DNA from: Bacillota bacterium
GTDB taxonomy: Bacteria; Bacillota; Sulfobacillia; DUSP01; JBFMCS01
Direction of reading: 5' to 3'
DNA: 47,594 nucleotides
NCBI GenBank assembly: GCA_040754315.1
Contig: JBFMCS010000003.1
Location: 1 to 47,594 of the forward strand
Positions 37,903 to 46,792 of the stretch are shown one piece after another. How positions within the stretch are numbered: the first letter of the stretch is position 1; every line of letters begins with the position of its first letter. The notes under the pieces were generated by a model. The model saw only the letters and a program-made list of their open reading frames with translations, searched no databases and was not told the origin of the DNA. The position numbers and the translations under genes are program-made.

Positions 37903-38204
37903 TTAAGTAACCTCCTCGCAGGTTAAAGCAGTAATGAAGGTAACCCTCAGGGAAGAGGGAATACCTGGGTAGGGCTGTGCCTGGGAGAGAGCCACAACCT
38001 CCTGGCAGTGCGACTGCCTACCAAAGACTGCTCCCCCAGGGAGATGCCCTGCCGCCAGACGATCGAAAGGGCGTAGTGCACAAAGCACCGATTCCACGAG
38101 GCCATCGCGGCGGCTTGGGTTGCCCGAGTTCCCTGAAGGAGTGAGATCGATGCGACCAACACGACATATGTCTTCTAGAGGACGAGTCAAATAACGCCCA
38201 GTTT
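37903..38204. other. Intergenic sequence, possibly IS110 flank
   Basis: No credible gene. It contains a small perfect hairpin, GGCAGT-GCG-ACTGCC (38004-38018). Because the IS110 transposase remnant begins right after it, part of this stretch may be the element's left end. Confidence 0.35.
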
Positions 38205-38600
38205 GTAGCCGTGCCAATTCCCCTGAGGGCTTGGATGAACTTGCTAGGCCTCTTGGCCGAAGGCTACGCCGTTTACACTGTCAAACCCAAGATTGTTGAC
38301 CGCTACAGAGACCCGTTACACGCCTTCTGGCTCCAAGGATGACAGTAAGATCCTTGGTCTTGGCAAGTATCCTCAAGACCGATAGGGCTCGGCATAGGCC
38401 TGTGCGGGCCGATAGTGAACATTTACGACAACTACGCTTTCTATGCCAGGACCGCCAAGGTTTGGTGCATAGCAAGACCATGCTGATAAACCAACTCACC
38501 GCCTGCCTAAAGGCCTACTACCCCAGAGCTCGAGAACTTGGTAAAATCTCATCCTGACAGTGAGATGTTCCTCACTATCATCGAGCATATCCGTGCTGTT
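38205..38600 (+). mobile_element. IS110-family transposase remnant (central part, frameshifted)
   Basis: One frame gives MNLLGLLAEGYAVYTVKPKI then VDRYRDPLHAFW near 38233-38330. After a frameshift the second gives LVLASILKTDRARHRP, DSEHLRQLRFLCQDRQGLVH and KTMLINQLTACLKAYYPRAR to 38557. This matches the middle of IS110 transposases. The N-terminal DEDD domain and the C-terminal part are missing. Confidence 0.72.
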
Positions 38601-39149
38601 GAGCTGGATCCCTGGAATGTGCTACATCGCCGCGGAAACCTCCCAGAACCTTTTCGTGGCACAACGCATTGGCCAATACCTGGATTAGAATAAGGGCGTC
38701 TTGGGTTTTGCTGGTCTTGCCTGTTCCCTTTGCTCGCGCTCCTGCCCTTGTCGGTAAGGACCTCGTTCACAGCAACCGGCCAGCATTTAGATTTAGCTTC
38801 ACTTTGATACCTGGAGATCCCTTTGTTGATAATTACAAATTGAAGGGTTTGCCCTTCCAGGGGTGGCGCCTTTGGCCTGGCGCCTGCAGCATCTCACCTT
38901 GCTAGGTAATTAAGGTGGGGATTTTTCTTGGCCGAAAATAGGGAATTCCTAATGGCCAAGGAAGTCTGCTCGGGTGTACGCCAGATCCCTGTTTGTGAGT
39001 GAAACCCAGGCAGCCTGATCGGGACAACATTGCCCAGGTCTCCATGCGTAGGCAGCCTGGACCACGAACACCCCGGACGTGACAGGTTATCCTGAGGGTC
39101 CTGTCCAGTCCATGGAAGGCAAGAACGCTATCTTGCTGATGCCTCAAAC
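38601..39149. other. Degraded intergenic DNA downstream of the ATPase operon
   Basis: Only short frames with no recognisable motifs on either strand. It is probably leftover mobile-element sequence; the first 90 bases may still belong to the IS110 remnant. Confidence 0.35.
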
Positions 39150-39208: not shown

Positions 39209-40417
39209 TTATGCCCATGAGACCTCCTCATCTACATGTTCGTACTCTTCCACTAGGTCACTCACATTGAGAATGGGATCCTCGTTGTACTGCAGGAGAT
39301 GATCCAGCCACTGTATACCCGCGCGTATCCGAGTCCTGAGCTTCGTGTCCCGGGCTGGGAAGACCTCAAGGATTCGTTCCAGCAGTTCTCTGCCGTTAAG
39401 TGGTGGGGTCCAACCGTAAGCCTTTGAATGGGCGGAGACTATCTGTTCCATGACGCCGGCGAGTTGTTCCTCTGACAGGGGCAACAGCGCCTCAGCCTCA
39501 ACCATCTTGTCAAGGACCTCATCAGTGTGCTGGGCTTCCTCCACTAATCCCCGGGTTCTCAGCCACTCAGACGCCATCGCGCTATCATTCAGGCGGTCCA
39601 GGACATCGGGGAAAAAGCTCGTGGCTACTGTGAAAACGCTCAGGGTACTCGCCAGGCCACCCTTGGGAGAAAGGAACCTATTGATGTTAGCATAGGACCT
39701 TGCCCGGGCACCAGCGCCCAGTTTCCCAATTAGTTCCGCTTCGTCTATAAGCAGCACCCACCCCCTGTACCCCCTTAACCGGGCCAGTGCATCCACCATG
39801 CGAAAGTAATCCCAGGTATCAGAGGAGGCCGTGAACCTGCTTAGTTTCAGTGTTTCGTGGAAGTTGAGTCTGTGAATTGCCTTGAGATCCTGCGCCCTCA
39901 TGAATTCCCCAGCCAAGTCTTGATAGAGCCCGTAAGAGGCATCGGTGTATTGACCCTCTATGTAGTTCCGGAGCACCGCGGCTATCTTAGGGTGAAGGTT
40001 TGACTCAGCAAAACCTAGGATTTCCCCTGCCTCCTGGCTGCCGCCACGCACATCGGAGATCAGTTGTTCGATGCCGGGCTGGCTCGAACCGGGCAAGTAG
40101 GTTCCGGCTATAACCTTGGGATAAACCCTGTAAAACTTGTCAAAGGGTGTCTCCTTACTCAATATGATGAGGCTGACTACACACTCTTCTCTCAGTGCCA
40201 TATCCCAGATGGCATGCAACAGGTGGGTCTTACCTTCTCCATAATTGGCTTTGACGAAGATGGCTTGGCTGCCACGGGACCTCAGGCTCTGTATCTCATC
40301 ACGCACCTTTTCCAGGAGCCGCTCCCTACCCATGGGAAAACGACTGGCCACGCGGCGGGAAGGTACTCCCGATCGAAAGCTCTCAATGATGAGCCTCTGC
40401 TCTTGCTGGTCCTTCAT
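39209..40417 (-). CDS. P-loop ATPase resembling BrxD/DUF2791 (ATPase B of the four-gene system)
   Basis: 402 residues. The N-terminal SFRSGVPSRRVASRFPMGRE leads into Walker A KANYGEGKTHLLHA (58-64) and Walker B GWVLLIDEAELIG (D225-E226). The 'GEGKTHLL' loop, the early arginine-rich segment and the overall length resemble the ATP-binding proteins annotated as DUF2791/BrxD in BREX-type phage-defence loci, which are distant Orc1/Cdc6-type AAA proteins. Start ATG 40417 has AAGGAGG upstream and overlaps the previous stop as ATGA, so it is made together with ATPase A. It is the last gene of the operon. Confidence 0.8.
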   Translation of the reverse strand: MKDQQEQRLIIESFRSGVPSRRVASRFPMGRERLLEKVRDEIQSLRSRGSQAIFVKANYGEGKTHLLHAIWDMALREECVVSLIILSKETPFDKFYRVYPKVIAGTYLPGSSQPGIEQLISDVRGGSQEAGEILGFAESNLHPKIAAVLRNYIEGQYTDASYGLYQDLAGEFMRAQDLKAIHRLNFHETLKLSRFTASSDTWDYFRMVDALARLRGYRGWVLLIDEAELIGKLGAGARARSYANINRFLSPKGGLASTLSVFTVATSFFPDVLDRLNDSAMASEWLRTRGLVEEAQHTDEVLDKMVEAEALLPLSEEQLAGVMEQIVSAHSKAYGWTPPLNGRELLERILEVFPARDTKLRTRIRAGIQWLDHLLQYNEDPILNVSDLVEEYEHVDEEVSWA

Positions 40418-41604
40418 GGCTGCTGCCTCCTTGTCTTATCCAGCACCATACTCATAGTCATGCGTACGGGGGAAACGCTGCCCGCTGGGTCGATGCCACC
40501 CAACTCGTCCAGGATCTCACCTCGCAGGGGTGGGGGCGCCCCGACAAGGTCTAGCACATTGCTGGCGATCTGGGCAAGGCATGCCCGGCCACTTTGTTGC
40601 CAGGCGTGGTCGAGGTCTATCAAGTCGGCAAATCTGTTGAACTTCTCGGAACGCACCTCGTTCTGCAGTCGCATCCAAAGGGCCTCATATGAACGGATCC
40701 CCCTGGACTGGTCCTCCACAATCTCCCTGCGTCCGGAGAGAATCAGGAAAAAGCCTCTCACGCTGTCCACTTCATCCACTACCTGTCGCAGGCTCTCATA
40801 GAACTCATCCCTCTTGGTGCGGGTATACTTTGCGCCGTGTTCAGGGTGCTTTTCCGTGACCTGGTGGACGTCATCAATTGCCAAGAGAACCCCCTTAACG
40901 TTCGCCTTCGGCAGGAAGTGAAGCAAGGACCTGAACACCAACCGCGCACTGTAGCGATCGATGGCCTTCCGAATACCAATCGTGTTGCGTTCGCGAGCCG
41001 GGACATAATCGCCCTTGAGCCACCTGTCCAAGGTGGAGCGCACCTCGGCGCCAAGGGAATGGACACCTAAATCGTCGCTGGCAAGGAGGAGTATGGCCGT
41101 GGCAAGAGACCGGTCCATGTCCAAGTCGCCGAAGAGGTCTTCCGCGAGTCTATCCTTGATCTCCCTGCGAACAACGGAGCCCTCCCTCCCATGAGATACA
41201 GCCCATTCCAGAAAGGCCACGTCATGCCTGTCATAGGCATACCCCAGCCTGCTCAGGAGGGCACCCGTATAGTGTCTAATCAGGGTCCCGGTATTGACAC
41301 CCTTCATGATCTGGCGGTAGATCTGGTCAAAGGAGAACAACGGCATTTCCTGGGCGCTCACTACCTGGGCCATGTACCCCCGGTTTCTGGCCTGGGAGGC
41401 GAGGTACCTGATGAAGTGAGACTTCCCACAACCCTTTCGCCCGGTGATGAGCTTGAGCTTGGAGCCTCCCTCAGCCAGGTAGGTATCGAGGTAGCGATCA
41501 CACAGAAACCTTGCCTGCCCCAGAGGGTCCACGAAGGTTTTGTGGAGCAGATCAGCATCATCCGGGGGTCCGTCTGGAGACAGGGCCAGAAGAAGGGTAT
41601 TCAC
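40414..41604 (-). CDS. Second P-loop ATPase (ATPase A of the four-gene system)
   Basis: 396 residues. Residues 21-40 (HKTFVDPLGQARFLCDRYLD) precede Walker A ITGRKGCGKSHFIRYLA (55-62). Walker B is GVLLAIDDVHQVTEKH (D244-D245). A following strand (GFFLILSGRREIVED) could be sensor 1, and an Arg-rich segment ends the core. It is of the same size and general plan as ATPase B but clearly different in sequence, so the two probably form a hetero-oligomer rather than a recent duplicate. Its GTG start at 41604 overlaps the previous stop as GTGA. Confidence 0.78.
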   Translation of the reverse strand: MNTLLLALSPDGPPDDADLLHKTFVDPLGQARFLCDRYLDTYLAEGGSKLKLITGRKGCGKSHFIRYLASQARNRGYMAQVVSAQEMPLFSFDQIYRQIMKGVNTGTLIRHYTGALLSRLGYAYDRHDVAFLEWAVSHGREGSVVRREIKDRLAEDLFGDLDMDRSLATAILLLASDDLGVHSLGAEVRSTLDRWLKGDYVPARERNTIGIRKAIDRYSARLVFRSLLHFLPKANVKGVLLAIDDVHQVTEKHPEHGAKYTRTKRDEFYESLRQVVDEVDSVRGFFLILSGRREIVEDQSRGIRSYEALWMRLQNEVRSEKFNRFADLIDLDHAWQQSGRACLAQIASNVLDLVGAPPPLRGEILDELGGIDPAGSVSPVRMTMSMVLDKTRRQQP

Positions 41605-42419
41605 TTTTCATCCACCTCTTGTACCTCCAGATAGCCGAGGTATTCGGTGCCGGTATGACTGGGCACCGCCATTGCGTTCGCGGCCGAGCGCACATTGCCA
41701 AAGATCAAGCGCCTGTTGTTCCAGACTAGGTTGGAACTGTCTCTTAGGCGATACAGGTCGAAGGCGAAGAGCCGTTCTGAATACCCTGAACGCCCTTTAA
41801 GCAGGGTAAGCACTTGGTATATCCTCTTTAGGCGAACCTGCCTCATCGGGCGACCCTTGGTTTGAACGCTCTCAGAGACCAGGAGATCGTAGGCCCTGAG
41901 GAGGGCAGACATGAACTGGCCCTCGTTCAACCGGCTCCTCATGAGCCTATCCAGTTCTCTCCGTATAGTGGAAGCCAGTGACACGGGGTCTAGGGCCCGG
42001 TTCACCCTGTTGTTCAAGAGGACCTGCTCCTCAGCCAGGGATATGCGGATTTCGAAGGGAAACACTTCGTAGCTGGGGAAGATACCTTCAACACGAAGAT
42101 CCAGCCTTTCGCAAGCTGCCTCAAAGACCTGTGCGTAGTCATGCTCTGGAATGTCGGTGAGGTTGAACCTAGAAACCGCATCCTCAAGGGCCTTCATGTG
42201 CTCCAGATAAGCAGTGACTGGTGCCTTGGAGGCTGCAAGGTGCCGCCTTAAGGCCGGAAGGTCAAGGACCTCTGAGGCTTGGAGGGCGTTCTTGGCGTTC
42301 TTCCCGAGGCTTTGTTGTGCCTTGCGAAGGCAATCCGCGACAGCCCTAATGTATTGCACATCACGCAGCCAGCCGGTGTCACCTGTTGATGGAGCCTTGG
42401 TCTCAGGGGCTATTTCCAT
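41601..42419 (-). CDS. Uncharacterised helical protein of the four-gene system
   Basis: 272 residues from ATG 42419 (GAGGAGG seven bases upstream; the frame is open to 42452). I recognise no domain. The N-terminal half is rich in predicted helix (IRAVADCLRKAQQSLGKNAK, LPALRRHLAASKAPV). The middle has FPFEIRISLAEEQVLLNNRV and STIRRELDRLMRSRLNEGQF. The C-terminus has a beta-rich stretch (LFAFDLYRLRDSSNLVWNN). No catalytic motif is obvious. Its place between the helicase and the two ATPases, with a 4-base overlap with ATPase A, suggests a structural or DNA-recognition subunit. Confidence 0.75.
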   Translation of the reverse strand: MEIAPETKAPSTGDTGWLRDVQYIRAVADCLRKAQQSLGKNAKNALQASEVLDLPALRRHLAASKAPVTAYLEHMKALEDAVSRFNLTDIPEHDYAQVFEAACERLDLRVEGIFPSYEVFPFEIRISLAEEQVLLNNRVNRALDPVSLASTIRRELDRLMRSRLNEGQFMSALLRAYDLLVSESVQTKGRPMRQVRLKRIYQVLTLLKGRSGYSERLFAFDLYRLRDSSNLVWNNRRLIFGNVRSAANAMAVPSHTGTEYLGYLEVQEVDEK

Positions 42420-42483
42420 GATATTACCTCCTCGGCAGATTTCTAGGTTCATCCTCCATAATACATCCCGCGCCTCTTCCGGG

Positions 42484-42507
42484 AAGGAGGAGGTACTCGT
42501 CCTCCTT
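42484..42507. repeat. 8-bp hairpin between helicase and downstream operon genes
   Basis: AAGGAGGA-N8-TCCTCCTT in the 140-base gap between the helicase stop and the next gene. On the minus-strand transcript it pairs a ribosome-site-like AAGGAGG, so it could set relative expression of the two halves of the operon or mark an internal processing point. Confidence 0.4.
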
Positions 42508-42559
42508 ATGCGCTGTCACTCAGTTCTTGGGTAATTAGCCGGAAACCCTCCCCTTCCCT

Positions 42560-45500
42560 TTAAGAGGTTTCTCTCCACCGGCAATCCGGCCATTCACTGC
42601 AAGCCAGGAACGTGCCGTAGCGGGAGGACTTGAGACATACCCTTCCGCCGCAATCCGGACATCTTAGATCCATGTCCTTTAGGAATTTGACCACAACTGA
42701 CCTTGGAATGCTGACCGTACGGTGCCGTTCACTTGCGTGGGACGGGCAGCCAAAGAAGGGGCCGTACTTGCCCCATATTAACCTCATGGGCCGGCCGCAA
42801 TCGAGGCATGTGGGTGTGGGGCGGCTTTCAGACAGGTATTGGCAAAGGTAAACCAGGAAGGCGTGCTTGGCCTGACTGTTCAGTTGTTCTCGAAGAAGCG
42901 CTGCTCCGGTGAGCTCCACAAGTCTTCGCACGATGGGAGGACTGGAGAGCCGTATCATCTGTTCGGCCGAGTAGCCGTGGGAAAGTGGGCTGAGGTTGCC
43001 GAAGTAGGCCACGTCCCTGTCAATGAAAGCCATCCTCTGGTGGAGATTCGAGCGGCACACGATACTCAACCCCTCGATCGATGAGGCCTCCGACAACAAT
43101 TGGCGAGTCTTCCCATCTGCTGGGGAGGGCTCCCTCGTGACGATCATCACCCTGGCACCCTTCTCACACAGGCATTGAAAGCCCTTGAGCGCTTCACGGA
43201 AACGCTTCTCGCGAATATACGGGCTATAGAGGATGACCTGGCTTCTTGCCCGTCGCATGTCCTCCGCCAAGAGGGCATGGAAGGCGTTACTGTCACAGAC
43301 AAGGATGTCATGAGGTCTCAGGGGATCAGCGCCGGTGGGGCTGCCCGAGTTGGCCTTGATCACCTCCCTGGAATCAAGGAACCTGTATGGGTCAGGGTAG
43401 TCCAGCAGGGTTCTAAGACTGTCATCCTTACCAGTCCTTGCCTCCAGATGAGCTCGGTCCCCTACTATCACCAGTTTGCCCTTGGCACGGGTGCAGGCCA
43501 CGTTCAGCAGGCGCATTGCGTTACTGCCAAAGCCGCCCTTCAGGAGCCTCCCTATCCTATAGGGGAAGTCATCCACTATGTCAAAGATAATGAAGTGTTT
43601 CTCGGCCCCCTGGAAACGATGCACCGTCGCAATTTCTACCTGGCTGGAGTCAAGCCCGTACTCCTCCGCCAGTGCATGCAGCAACCGGGCCTGTGCCCTG
43701 TAGGGCGTTATGACTCCAACTTCTCCACTTCCGTTCACGGTGATCTCTCTTGCCAGTAGGATGCTGACCAGGGCACTATAGAGATTGTACCGTGAATAGC
43801 CGGGCTCTGAACGGGCACACCAGCAGCCAGCCATGGAGGTGTCGCAGAACACCAAGGCGTGGTCAGGCTTTGGGTAACTCCGGGTCGCGGCCATGTATTC
43901 GTGTGGTTTGGCCTTGTGCTCCAGGTTATTATCTTTATAGGCCAGCCGGTTGGCCAGGTTGCCTATGGCGGGGTGCATTCTGTGTTGCTCAGTGAGGATG
44001 GAAAGACGTGGGTCATGGACAACCTTTCCGCTGGCATCAACCAGACCTGCCTGTTCAAAGATATCCCTGGTCATCCACTTGCTGCCCATGGGGTAGTCTC
44101 CGGGGTCACTGGCCGCGGCTATGGGTGGTAGTTGGCGGAAGTCACCAGATACGACCACACGCCGGGCCGAACAGCCTGCGGCGAACCATACGTTGGGCAG
44201 TGGTGCCATGCTGGCCTCATCAATAATAATGGTGTCAAAGGGAGTCTCGTGGAGCTCTGGCATGATGGCCAGCCGGTAGAGCGTCGCACCTACAACGCGA
44301 GCGCCAGCCAGGATGGTCCGGGGGAGAGCCTCCAGATCTAATTCGATCCTGGTGATTGAGCTGGCCAATTCTTCTAAGCTTGCGCGGAGACGGTTGATCT
44401 CCCGGCGCATATTGAGGGGGTCCGTTCCCCCACGGCGTTTTGCCAGTGCCATCTTCAAGCGCTGGATTTCCTCGGCCTGCCTGAGGGTTTCGAGCGTGTC
44501 ATGAGACTCCATCTCGAGGTTCAAACGCTGCTCTGACAGTTCTCTCACCAATCTGTCGGCACTATCCGTCTGCCGCTCTAACCTTATGGCAGGTGCGAAA
44601 AACCCCTTGGGCAACCCGCGTTGGCGCGCTCGTTTCAGCCTCTCACACAACCTGTCCCTCTTGGTGAGAGCCTCGATCTCCGCTTCCTTCAACCTCCTGG
44701 CCCTGGCTTCCAACTGCACAAGGGTGGTCCTGAGGCGTTGCACCTCCGGTTCCCGTTTTTGGGCCTCCTCTATGTATCTTGCGCTCGATTCGAGGCGGGC
44801 TATTTGTCTTGACACCCGCTTTCGCTCGGCTTCGAAAACCGCCTTCTCCTCGCGCAAGGGCCTGGCCTTGTCCTCAATGACAGCCTCCAGGGTGATGCCT
44901 GCCACCGAGGGGTCTGGTCTCTGGGGTTCTCCGACCCTGATGACAGTGCCCGGCTCCCGTTCCGTCTCAGGGAGGTATTGGAGCACAGCGAGCACCGCTG
45001 CGTCAACCGCCACGTTGGTGTGGGATGTGACGAGCACGCGTTCCCTTCCCTGGAGCAAAGCAGCGAGTTTGCCGATGGTCCTTGTCTTTCCTGTTCCTGG
45101 GGGTCCCCAGATGAAGCAAACTTGGCTCGTCTGGCAATTGAGAATGGCCCGTCGCTGGCCTTCATTGAGTCCGTCAAGATGGTCTATGTGAGCGTGAGGA
45201 AGGCCGGCATCACACGAGTCTCCCTCTAGGCGAAAGAGGCGAACCGCAAGGTCCTTGTTGGCATGTAGACTGCCAAAGACCGTATCCGCAAGCCGCGACC
45301 TCAAGATCTCCAAGAGATAGTACGGGGAGACCAGCAAGGTGCCGCCAGGCACCAATGGGCCAAGATCCTCCTTCAGGCTCAGAATGATTTCCAAGCCCTG
45401 CATACCTACGACTACCGTTTGATACTTGAGATCTCCCAGCCGGAGCTGGCCTGGGGTGTCACAGGGTAGTGCGATCTCGGAATCCACGAGGAAGGCGTAG

Positions 45501-45643
45501 AGATAAGATGTGCCCAAGCGCCCGTGGCGACGGCCATGGCGAAGCACGAGGGGTTCGGTACCGAACTCCTTCTTGACGGCATCGATCTCGTCTTCCAGGG
45601 CGGCCATTAGCTGTTGCGTAATAGCTGTAAAGGTATCAGCCAT
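42560..45643 (-). CDS. SF1 helicase fused to a PLD-like domain and two topoisomerase-type zinc ribbons
   Basis: 1027 residues, first gene of the four-gene system. The Upf1/Dna2-like SF1 core has Walker A FIWGPPGTGKTRTIGKLAAL (180-187), a charged coiled-coil insertion (about 260-440), Walker B TIIIDEASMAPLPN (472-478), SGDFRQLPPI, TEQHRMHPAIGNLANR and VHRFQGAEKHFIIFD with LLNVACTRAKGKL. Residues about 775-915 form a PLD-like domain whose motif is HQRMAFIDRDVAYFGNLS, with Arg in place of the usual HKD Lys. Two C4 topoisomerase-type ribbons end the protein; the second (C995, C998, C1015, C1021) is intact and the first lacks its fourth Cys. Start ATG 45643 follows AAGGGAG. Confidence 0.88.
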   Translation of the reverse strand: MADTFTAITQQLMAALEDEIDAVKKEFGTEPLVLRHGRRHGRLGTSYLYAFLVDSEIALPCDTPGQLRLGDLKYQTVVVGMQGLEIILSLKEDLGPLVPGGTLLVSPYYLLEILRSRLADTVFGSLHANKDLAVRLFRLEGDSCDAGLPHAHIDHLDGLNEGQRRAILNCQTSQVCFIWGPPGTGKTRTIGKLAALLQGRERVLVTSHTNVAVDAAVLAVLQYLPETEREPGTVIRVGEPQRPDPSVAGITLEAVIEDKARPLREEKAVFEAERKRVSRQIARLESSARYIEEAQKREPEVQRLRTTLVQLEARARRLKEAEIEALTKRDRLCERLKRARQRGLPKGFFAPAIRLERQTDSADRLVRELSEQRLNLEMESHDTLETLRQAEEIQRLKMALAKRRGGTDPLNMRREINRLRASLEELASSITRIELDLEALPRTILAGARVVGATLYRLAIMPELHETPFDTIIIDEASMAPLPNVWFAAGCSARRVVVSGDFRQLPPIAAASDPGDYPMGSKWMTRDIFEQAGLVDASGKVVHDPRLSILTEQHRMHPAIGNLANRLAYKDNNLEHKAKPHEYMAATRSYPKPDHALVFCDTSMAGCWCARSEPGYSRYNLYSALVSILLAREITVNGSGEVGVITPYRAQARLLHALAEEYGLDSSQVEIATVHRFQGAEKHFIIFDIVDDFPYRIGRLLKGGFGSNAMRLLNVACTRAKGKLVIVGDRAHLEARTGKDDSLRTLLDYPDPYRFLDSREVIKANSGSPTGADPLRPHDILVCDSNAFHALLAEDMRRARSQVILYSPYIREKRFREALKGFQCLCEKGARVMIVTREPSPADGKTRQLLSEASSIEGLSIVCRSNLHQRMAFIDRDVAYFGNLSPLSHGYSAEQMIRLSSPPIVRRLVELTGAALLREQLNSQAKHAFLVYLCQYLSESRPTPTCLDCGRPMRLIWGKYGPFFGCPSHASERHRTVSIPRSVVVKFLKDMDLRCPDCGGRVCLKSSRYGTFLACSEWPDCRWRETS

Positions 45644-46067
45644 GTGCTTGCTCCCTTGAATCGAAACCGATTGGGGAAAAGGCAGCGAGAAGGTCGAATT
45701 CCGTAGTACTCTTCTCGCATTCTCTTAGGAATTCCTTTCGTGGCAGGAAGAAAATGGAGAGGGTAGTGATGTTTCACCGGTAGCGCATTTGTGGCTAGCG
45801 ACTAGAGGGGAATCAATATGACCGTTTACACTGGTGCAGTGATTGGGCGGTAAATACGGTTCATCTGTAACAGTGGGCTTACAACCTTGGTGGATCTGGT
45901 GGTCAGTCAGTGTTGGACTCTTAGGCCGCTGAGTGTCTGAAGGCGGGGCGGTTAAAGAGAGCCTGGGGGCGTGAGGACGACCGTACCTTGGCTTGAAAAT
46001 AGAGAGGTTTTGTGTAAATGGCTAGTACTACCAACTAAAAGCGGCACCCGATTTCGTCCGATCCTGG
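45644..46067. other. Promoter-side region of the four-gene system
   Basis: No credible gene in about 420 bases. A short dyad, AATCG-AAAC-CGATT (near 45659-45672), lies just upstream of the helicase ribosome site, and a GGAATTC direct repeat lies near 45695 and 45730. No clear -35/-10 pair stands out. Confidence 0.35.
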
Positions 46068-46265
46068 GAGAGTAACTGGGTAAAGCTGACCGCGTGTTTC
46101 AACTACCCGTGTGAGATCTGCCGGATCATCTATACCACCAACACCATCGAGGGCTATCACCGGCAGCTGCGGAAGGTGACCAATAAGAAGACCGCGTACC
46201 TCCGGCAGAACCCCGCCGGGCGCTCGGGTTGCTTTCCAGTACTGCCCTATCCTCCTGGCGAGTAA
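46068..46265 (+). mobile_element. IS256-family transposase, C-terminal remnant
   Basis: A 66-codon open piece reads NWVKLTACFNYPCEICRIIY then TTNTIEGYHRQLRKVTNKK. This is the highly characteristic C-terminal motif of IS256 transposases ('F.YP..IR..IYTTN.IE..NR..RK'). It then loses similarity before the stop. The rest of the element is absent. Confidence 0.85.
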
Positions 46266-46401
46266 AGACCCATTTAACACGAAAATTGGCCTATTCTGGG
46301 GCGGCTTGACAAGTAGATATGAGCAAGTCGAAAAAGGGCAAAATAATCCAAGCCGATGCCAGATAATGCATCAGCCAGGCGGCTATTCAGCGACCGAACG
46401 C

Positions 46402-46792
46402 TCATGCGGTCTTAGGGTGCTCTGTCACCACCACCAGGCCTATCTTCCTGGCCTCAGCAATTATCCTCTTGACCCGGAATACGTCTTGCTTCAGCTTTGC
46501 GACTTCAAAGTGGGCTTCATCGTAATCTTCGTTGTTCTTCAGTAAGTTGCAGATGCTCACGAGGATCTTTCTCGCTAATCCGACCAGGGCTCTTTTTGCA
46601 CCACGCCGTTGCTGGACCTTCCAATACCAAGAGGATAAATAGCTGTCACGCACTCGAGTGGTGGACCAGGCGACCTCACATAGGATGCGTTTTAGATAGG
46701 TGTTACCCTTGGTGGTGCGAGTGGACTTTTTTCCCCTGCACTTTCGTTATTGCCAGGGCTTAAGCCCGCCCAGGAACAAATGCGTTCGAACA
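46402..46792 (-). mobile_element. IS110-family transposase, C-terminal remnant (frameshifted)
   Basis: On the minus strand FERICSWAGLSPGNNESAG (46790-46735) is followed, after a frameshift near 46735, by KSTRTTKGNTYLKRILCEVA, then RRGAKRALVGLARKILV and HFEVAKLKQDVF to the stop at 46402. The 'SWAGL.PGNNESAGK.KS..T.KGN.YLR' block is diagnostic for the IS110/IS1111 C-terminal domain with its serine nucleophile region. Confidence 0.85.

Follow-up and report, generated by a model that had tools for sequence, protein, structure and literature searches.

Several described defence systems share parts with the locus analysed here. In BREX Type 2, the ORC/Cdc6-type ATPase BrxD is tied to a helicase, BrxHI, and has been proposed as its loader (PMC12839542); BrxL, which resembles MCM, has been suggested to need a loader (PMC10164562). 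Shango (SngABC) is a small operon made of a BrxD-like ATPase (SngB), a helicase (SngC) and a third protein (SngA, TerB-like), Mokosh contains an SF1 helicase and a PLD-like domain, and PbeABCD is a CxC ABC ATPase system (PMC10853773). The window, that is, the whole stretch of 47,594 nucleotides that was analysed, carries four minus-strand genes (A to D) that recall each of these systems in part, and that we judge to be a candidate unnamed variant of the BrxD/SngB kind of defence, in which an ATPase is joined to a motor.

Layout of the locus and comparison with BREX and Shango

The features of the locus are listed below; the transposase remnants were recognised from translations read by eye, with no HMM.

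42560 to 45643, minus strand: gene A, 1027 aa, UPF1/IGHMBP2-like SF1 helicase with a degenerate PLD-like domain and two C-terminal zinc ribbons
41601 to 42452, minus strand: gene B, 283 aa, family without a name
41601 to 41604, minus strand: B/C overlap, 4 bases, GTGA, read from the sequence
40414 to 41604, minus strand: gene C, 396 aa, BrxC_BrxD-type ATPase with an altered Walker B
40414 to 40417, minus strand: C/D overlap, 4 bases, ATGA, read from the sequence
39209 to 40417, minus strand: gene D, 402 aa, BrxC_BrxD-type ATPase with intact catalytic motifs
38300 to 38554, plus strand: IS110-type transposase remnant, left flank
46026 to 46262, plus strand: IS256-type transposase remnant, right flank (IYTTNTIEGYHRQLRKVT)
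46405 to 46746, minus strand: IS110-type transposase C-terminal remnant, right flank

All four open reading frames of the preliminary description were recovered on the minus strand, as were its two 4-base overlaps, at the B/C and C/D junctions, which suggest translational coupling. It had also placed IS110 and IS256 remnants on both sides, which holds for IS110 but not for IS256, seen on the right only. Transposase fragments on either side of the operon suggest an old insertion hotspot. Several such fragments overlap one another within positions 38145-38690 and 45950-46760. A scan of the locus for promoters and terminators gave nothing above chance level. Among the other large ORFs of the window, those scanned encode metabolic and regulatory proteins as well as DNA polymerase III alpha, the sole ORF longer than 1100 aa.

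The set is not BREX, since the genome lacks PglZ: PF08665 matched neither the window's genome nor the sister genome UBA8153, and no ORF corresponding to BrxC (~1200 aa) or to the PglX methyltransferase lies near the four genes. The earlier remark that PglZ, PglX and any protein of BrxC size are absent was thus borne out, for PglZ genome-wide. C and D do match BrxD profiles, but with 87.9 and 55.1 bits, respectively, against a BrxD equivalog cut-off of 350; moreover, the window set pairs two ATPases, one of them apparently disabled, and no BREX counterpart of B was found. Shango differs as well. C and D match SngB at 1e-17 and 1e-11, versus 5e-118 for a true SngB, and the motor of the window is an SF1 helicase with no SngC among the best matches of A. 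An identification of B as a TerB/SngA protein was rejected, neither B nor its 80 homologues having an SngA/TerB match among the matches listed. The view that the layout corresponds to no known system agrees with PADLOC 2023, NCBIfam 2026, Pfam and the literature found; no description of the B-C-D trio appeared in that literature, whose coverage left out preprints and most subscription papers.

The B-C-D core and its companion motors

The B-C-D arrangement goes beyond chance: of 86 complete loci, most of them from Bacillota, 85 have the three genes on one strand in that order, with median gaps of 11 bases between B and C and -8 bases between C and D, and their pairwise distances correlate (rho 0.89-0.91). 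Of 398 Bacillota genomes searched with B, 17 (~4%) were positive, in a patchy distribution, and all 17 loci also carry C and D. The genes thus form a conserved unit, as had been proposed. The outcome that would have refuted this, a lack of co-occurrence in other genomes, was not seen: B-C-D are always found as a group, usually accompanied by a helicase or BrxL, and UBA8153 has the same A-B-C-D set as the window. A core of all four genes was nonetheless rejected for one of B-C-D plus a motor, because an unrelated motor replaces A in most genomes and the nearest kin of A mostly stand alone.

In profile scans, B alone found no match in genome contigs, while the D profile, run on 84,980 genomes, matched 377 stretches, 80 of which were kept. 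Many loci come from MAG fragments whose names are unreliable, and we do not accept such names as proof that the set crosses phyla: L061, labelled 'Actinobacteria', appears to belong to the GTDB group of the sampled Bacillota. The GTDB phylum sample of this MAG (FK_Sedi_B_Bin.80) is the Bacillota sample, and its name seems wrong. Among 149 Spirochaetota genomes, one matched, the centre genome only. At L031 (1409-10509), the genes that come after B-C-D in the same orientation encode an HSP70-like protein (569 aa) and unassigned proteins, and D is split into two ORFs.

The companion is a PbeA-like SF2 helicase in 48 listed loci (mostly divergent; PbeA match 7e-60), an SF1 helicase in 10 listed loci and the window, BrxL in nine (directly after D) and an SNF2 helicase of the DpdE/ZorD kind in a few. 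These counts contain a few duplicates, and certain loci are truncated at contig ends or lack an assigned motor. An SngC-like helicase is the companion on two plasmids, and in L038 and L041 the genes immediately upstream of B-C-D are SngB-SngC. Companion type follows the phylogeny of the trio, with only five changes on the D tree, and no recurrent nuclease domain was found among 67 companions. BrxL, which adjoins D elsewhere, is absent from the window, where the SF1 helicase is the motor. The common PbeA-like companion recalls PbeABCD, but B-C-D sets carry ORC-type ATPases where Pbe has an ABC ATPase (PMC10853773), the SF2 companion lacks the N-terminal nuclease part of PbeA, and no convincing PbeC or other Pbe partner was found. 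The ABC ATPase PbeC had no PADLOC match in A to D of the window; one PbeC model matched 0 of 11 related genomes, and its controls gave no match either.

Because these motor families come from known anti-phage systems, B-C-D with its motor is probably an undescribed defence machine, a reading that draws on kinship and genomic context. Cas1/Cas3 genes lie beside L022 and L027, AbiE near the Desulfomonile copy of the trio, and a BREX cluster beside B-C-D in L029; on the Aulosira plasmid, PglZ-like, BrxD-like and BrxHI-like genes stand upstream of the trio. The failure to find the trio in the viral contigs and phage records searched, or close copies of it on plasmids, counts against defence.

Two of these neighbourhoods can be described further. 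In L029 (7065-19441), BrxC and PglXI are on the other strand, and an HTH-type protein precedes B, as in L033 and L034. In Aulosira laxa plasmid3 (L177:1-10278), a single gene run comprises a PglZ-like gene, an ATPase, a helicase, the remote B-C-D and a second helicase, the trio thus coming after genes like those of BREX Type 2.

Some of the evidence would suit a role in host DNA maintenance, B-C-D loading a helicase for repair, replication restart or the upkeep of plasmids or other elements, with proximity to defence genes reflecting variable regions. Companion motors are also similar to helicases of repair or replication, the fold of D is ORC/Cdc6-like (see below), remote copies of the trio sit on plasmids (Aulosira, Desulfomonile), and PADLOC scans of 135 flanking and 133 control genes showed no clear separation, the control also matching a Pbe locus and some flanks coming from related Lachnospiraceae. 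We consider this role unlikely, given the patchy presence in ~4% of Bacillota genomes, the motors from defence families (PbeA, BrxL, SngC, SNF2 of the DpdE/ZorD kind) and the BREX and CRISPR neighbours in single loci.

The ATPase pair, protein B and the helicase

C and D are ORC/Cdc6-clade BrxD-type ATPases (Pfam BrxC_BrxD, PF10923, formerly DUF2791; E 1e-28 and 5e-25, respectively). The motifs of D are intact (ANYGEGKT, LLIDE), and its Walker-A Lys and Walker-B Asp and Glu are invariant in 93 of 93 homologues. In C, Walker A is present (GRKGCGKS) but the Walker-B Glu is replaced by Asp (LAIDD); among its homologues, this Glu is lost in 88 of 89 and the Walker-A Lys kept in 78 of 89. The loss seems derived, since outgroup C proteins, from remote four-gene sets on the Aulosira and Desulfomonile plasmids, keep DE. 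The two ATPases of the preliminary description are indeed non-identical, but only D looks catalytic from these motifs, making it the apparent sole catalytic ATPase of the pair. The AlphaFold model of D (pLDDT 94) has as its nearest folds RdrA of the RADAR defence system, ORC/Cdc6, TnsC and DnaA.

B has no family match beyond chance level in Pfam, NCBIfam or PADLOC, and its 80 homologues show scattered weak matches at most (Pfam, PADLOC). In the 81-sequence alignment, an N-terminal helical coiled coil and a central beta region are followed by a C-terminal order of elements like that of a winged helix, a putative assignment based on secondary-structure order. The AlphaFold model is confident (pLDDT 91), and its comparison with PDB folds gave no match better than E 0.78. 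PDB profile matches of B to designed coiled coils and other helical proteins were discounted as composition matches. An identity with PbeC was likewise rejected, as B had only weak matches of coiled-coil type and the PbeC E-values of its homologues were no better than 0.003.

Protein A comprises three parts:

43397 to 45169, minus strand: SF1 helicase core, ~residues 159-749, Walker A GPPGTGKT and DEAS box intact (Pfam AAA_11/AAA_12)
42920 to 43264, minus strand: PLD-like domain, ~residues 794-908 (Pfam PLDc_2, E 1.4e-4, below the gathering score)
42572 to 42817, minus strand: two C-terminal zinc ribbons, ~residues 943-1024 (Zn_ribbon_Top1, E 7e-11)

Pfam thus recognises AAA_11/AAA_12 together with a topoisomerase-type zinc ribbon, and PDB profiles match the helicase core to UPF1 and SMUBP-2. 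Full-length colinear relatives of A were found linked to B-C-D; the helicase core is conserved in the alignment of linked relatives (A5), as is the CxxC...C pattern of the zinc ribbons.

The PLD-like domain had suggested a helicase-nuclease, a claim that was not supported. In the motif alignment, HxK(x)4D...GSxN reads HQR....D...GNLS in A, with the catalytic Lys replaced by Arg and the Ser of GS by Asn; in A of UBA8153 it reads VQQR, the His being lost too, and in eight clade-II linked helicases the motif is gone. Overall, it is intact in none of 10 readable SF1 helicases linked to B-C-D, against 6 of 7 readable unlinked relatives of A, the exception being L153 (Fisher p 6e-4, with the rows related and amounting to about two events, L153 being sister to clade II). 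A nuclease role for A is doubtful on this contrast, from which we read that the helicase may have lost its PLD nuclease on joining the trio. Mokosh is the nearest comparison for this architecture (helicase core to MkoA 1e-66, to MkoC 6e-39), but A has a broken HxK(x)4D motif, extra zinc ribbons and the partners B-C-D. A restriction machine in which the PLD domain of A breaks down invading DNA under the guidance of B-C-D, as first envisaged, would be in keeping with a domain that is still detectable and with standalone relatives bearing an intact HKD motif; the replaced residues in both A proteins, the loss in clade II and the lack of a recurrent nuclease in the other companions make it improbable.

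Whether A belongs to the set is a separate matter, as its nearest kin are mostly solitary helicase-PLD proteins without B-C-D, which counts against the reading favoured below. A could be an independent, single-gene, Mokosh-like defence gene lying by chance beside a trio that has lost its own motor or has it at another site. The 107 bases between A and B in the window would fit this, as would an AU test that rejected placing A in the family of clade-II companions (p 6e-6). However, the order A-B-C-D recurs in the sister genome Clostridiales UBA8153 (identity 45% for A, 55% for C and 69% for D), where A is directly upstream of B and C and D are on another contig, B being split by a contig break with contigs overlapping by 32 bases. 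The two A proteins are sisters in the tree, neither retains the PLD motif seen in their standalone kin, and other trios also have an adjoining motor. A chance neighbourhood therefore seems to us a poor bet.

Among the solitary helicase-PLD proteins, those of L140, L142, L144, L145, L148 and L149 are ~900-1070 aa long and retain the HKD motif, B-C-D being absent from their surroundings; they are perhaps a single-gene Mokosh-like defence family of their own. Solitary genes in L142 (2832-4862), L146 (2842-6145) and L147 (7906-11030), each split between two ORFs, may be copies that have decayed or suffered a frameshift.

A putative loader of exchangeable DNA motors

The reading that we favour, at roughly even odds (about 0.5), is that of an unnamed module against mobile elements, in which B-C-D would load or activate an exchangeable motor on invading DNA and block it without cutting. 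In the mechanism that we infer, active D and a nucleotide-binding, hydrolysis-defective C would form an ORC/Cdc6-like AAA+ assembly, and B, with its coiled coil and winged-helix-like C-terminal domain, would recognise DNA or a structure and bridge to the motor. This assembly would load or switch on a single motor on the invading DNA, here the SF1 helicase A, which would translocate and remodel the DNA, stopping its replication instead of cutting it. The non-cutting element of the model is suggested by the absence of a recurrent nuclease among the 67 companions and by the broken PLD motif in the 10 linked SF1 helicases.

More tentatively, and with considerable doubt, the module may be a prokaryotic form of 'licensing' turned to immunity, where an ORC/Cdc6-like heteromer of a live and a disabled subunit, together with a protein of new fold, would load interchangeable motors, including the MCM-like BrxL, on foreign DNA and stop its replication without cutting. 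If so, BREX and Shango would be specialised relatives of one loader-plus-motor plan, and the trio would represent a widespread minimal system, with 377 stretches encoding D relatives in the genome collection. To our knowledge, the field has yet to establish how BREX halts phage replication. What BREX Type 2 and Shango share, namely an ORC-like ATPase that serves a DNA motor, would here be isolated from methylation and nucleases, and the loader idea could be tested directly on a core of three proteins whose motors are exchangeable, BrxL alone being one of them.
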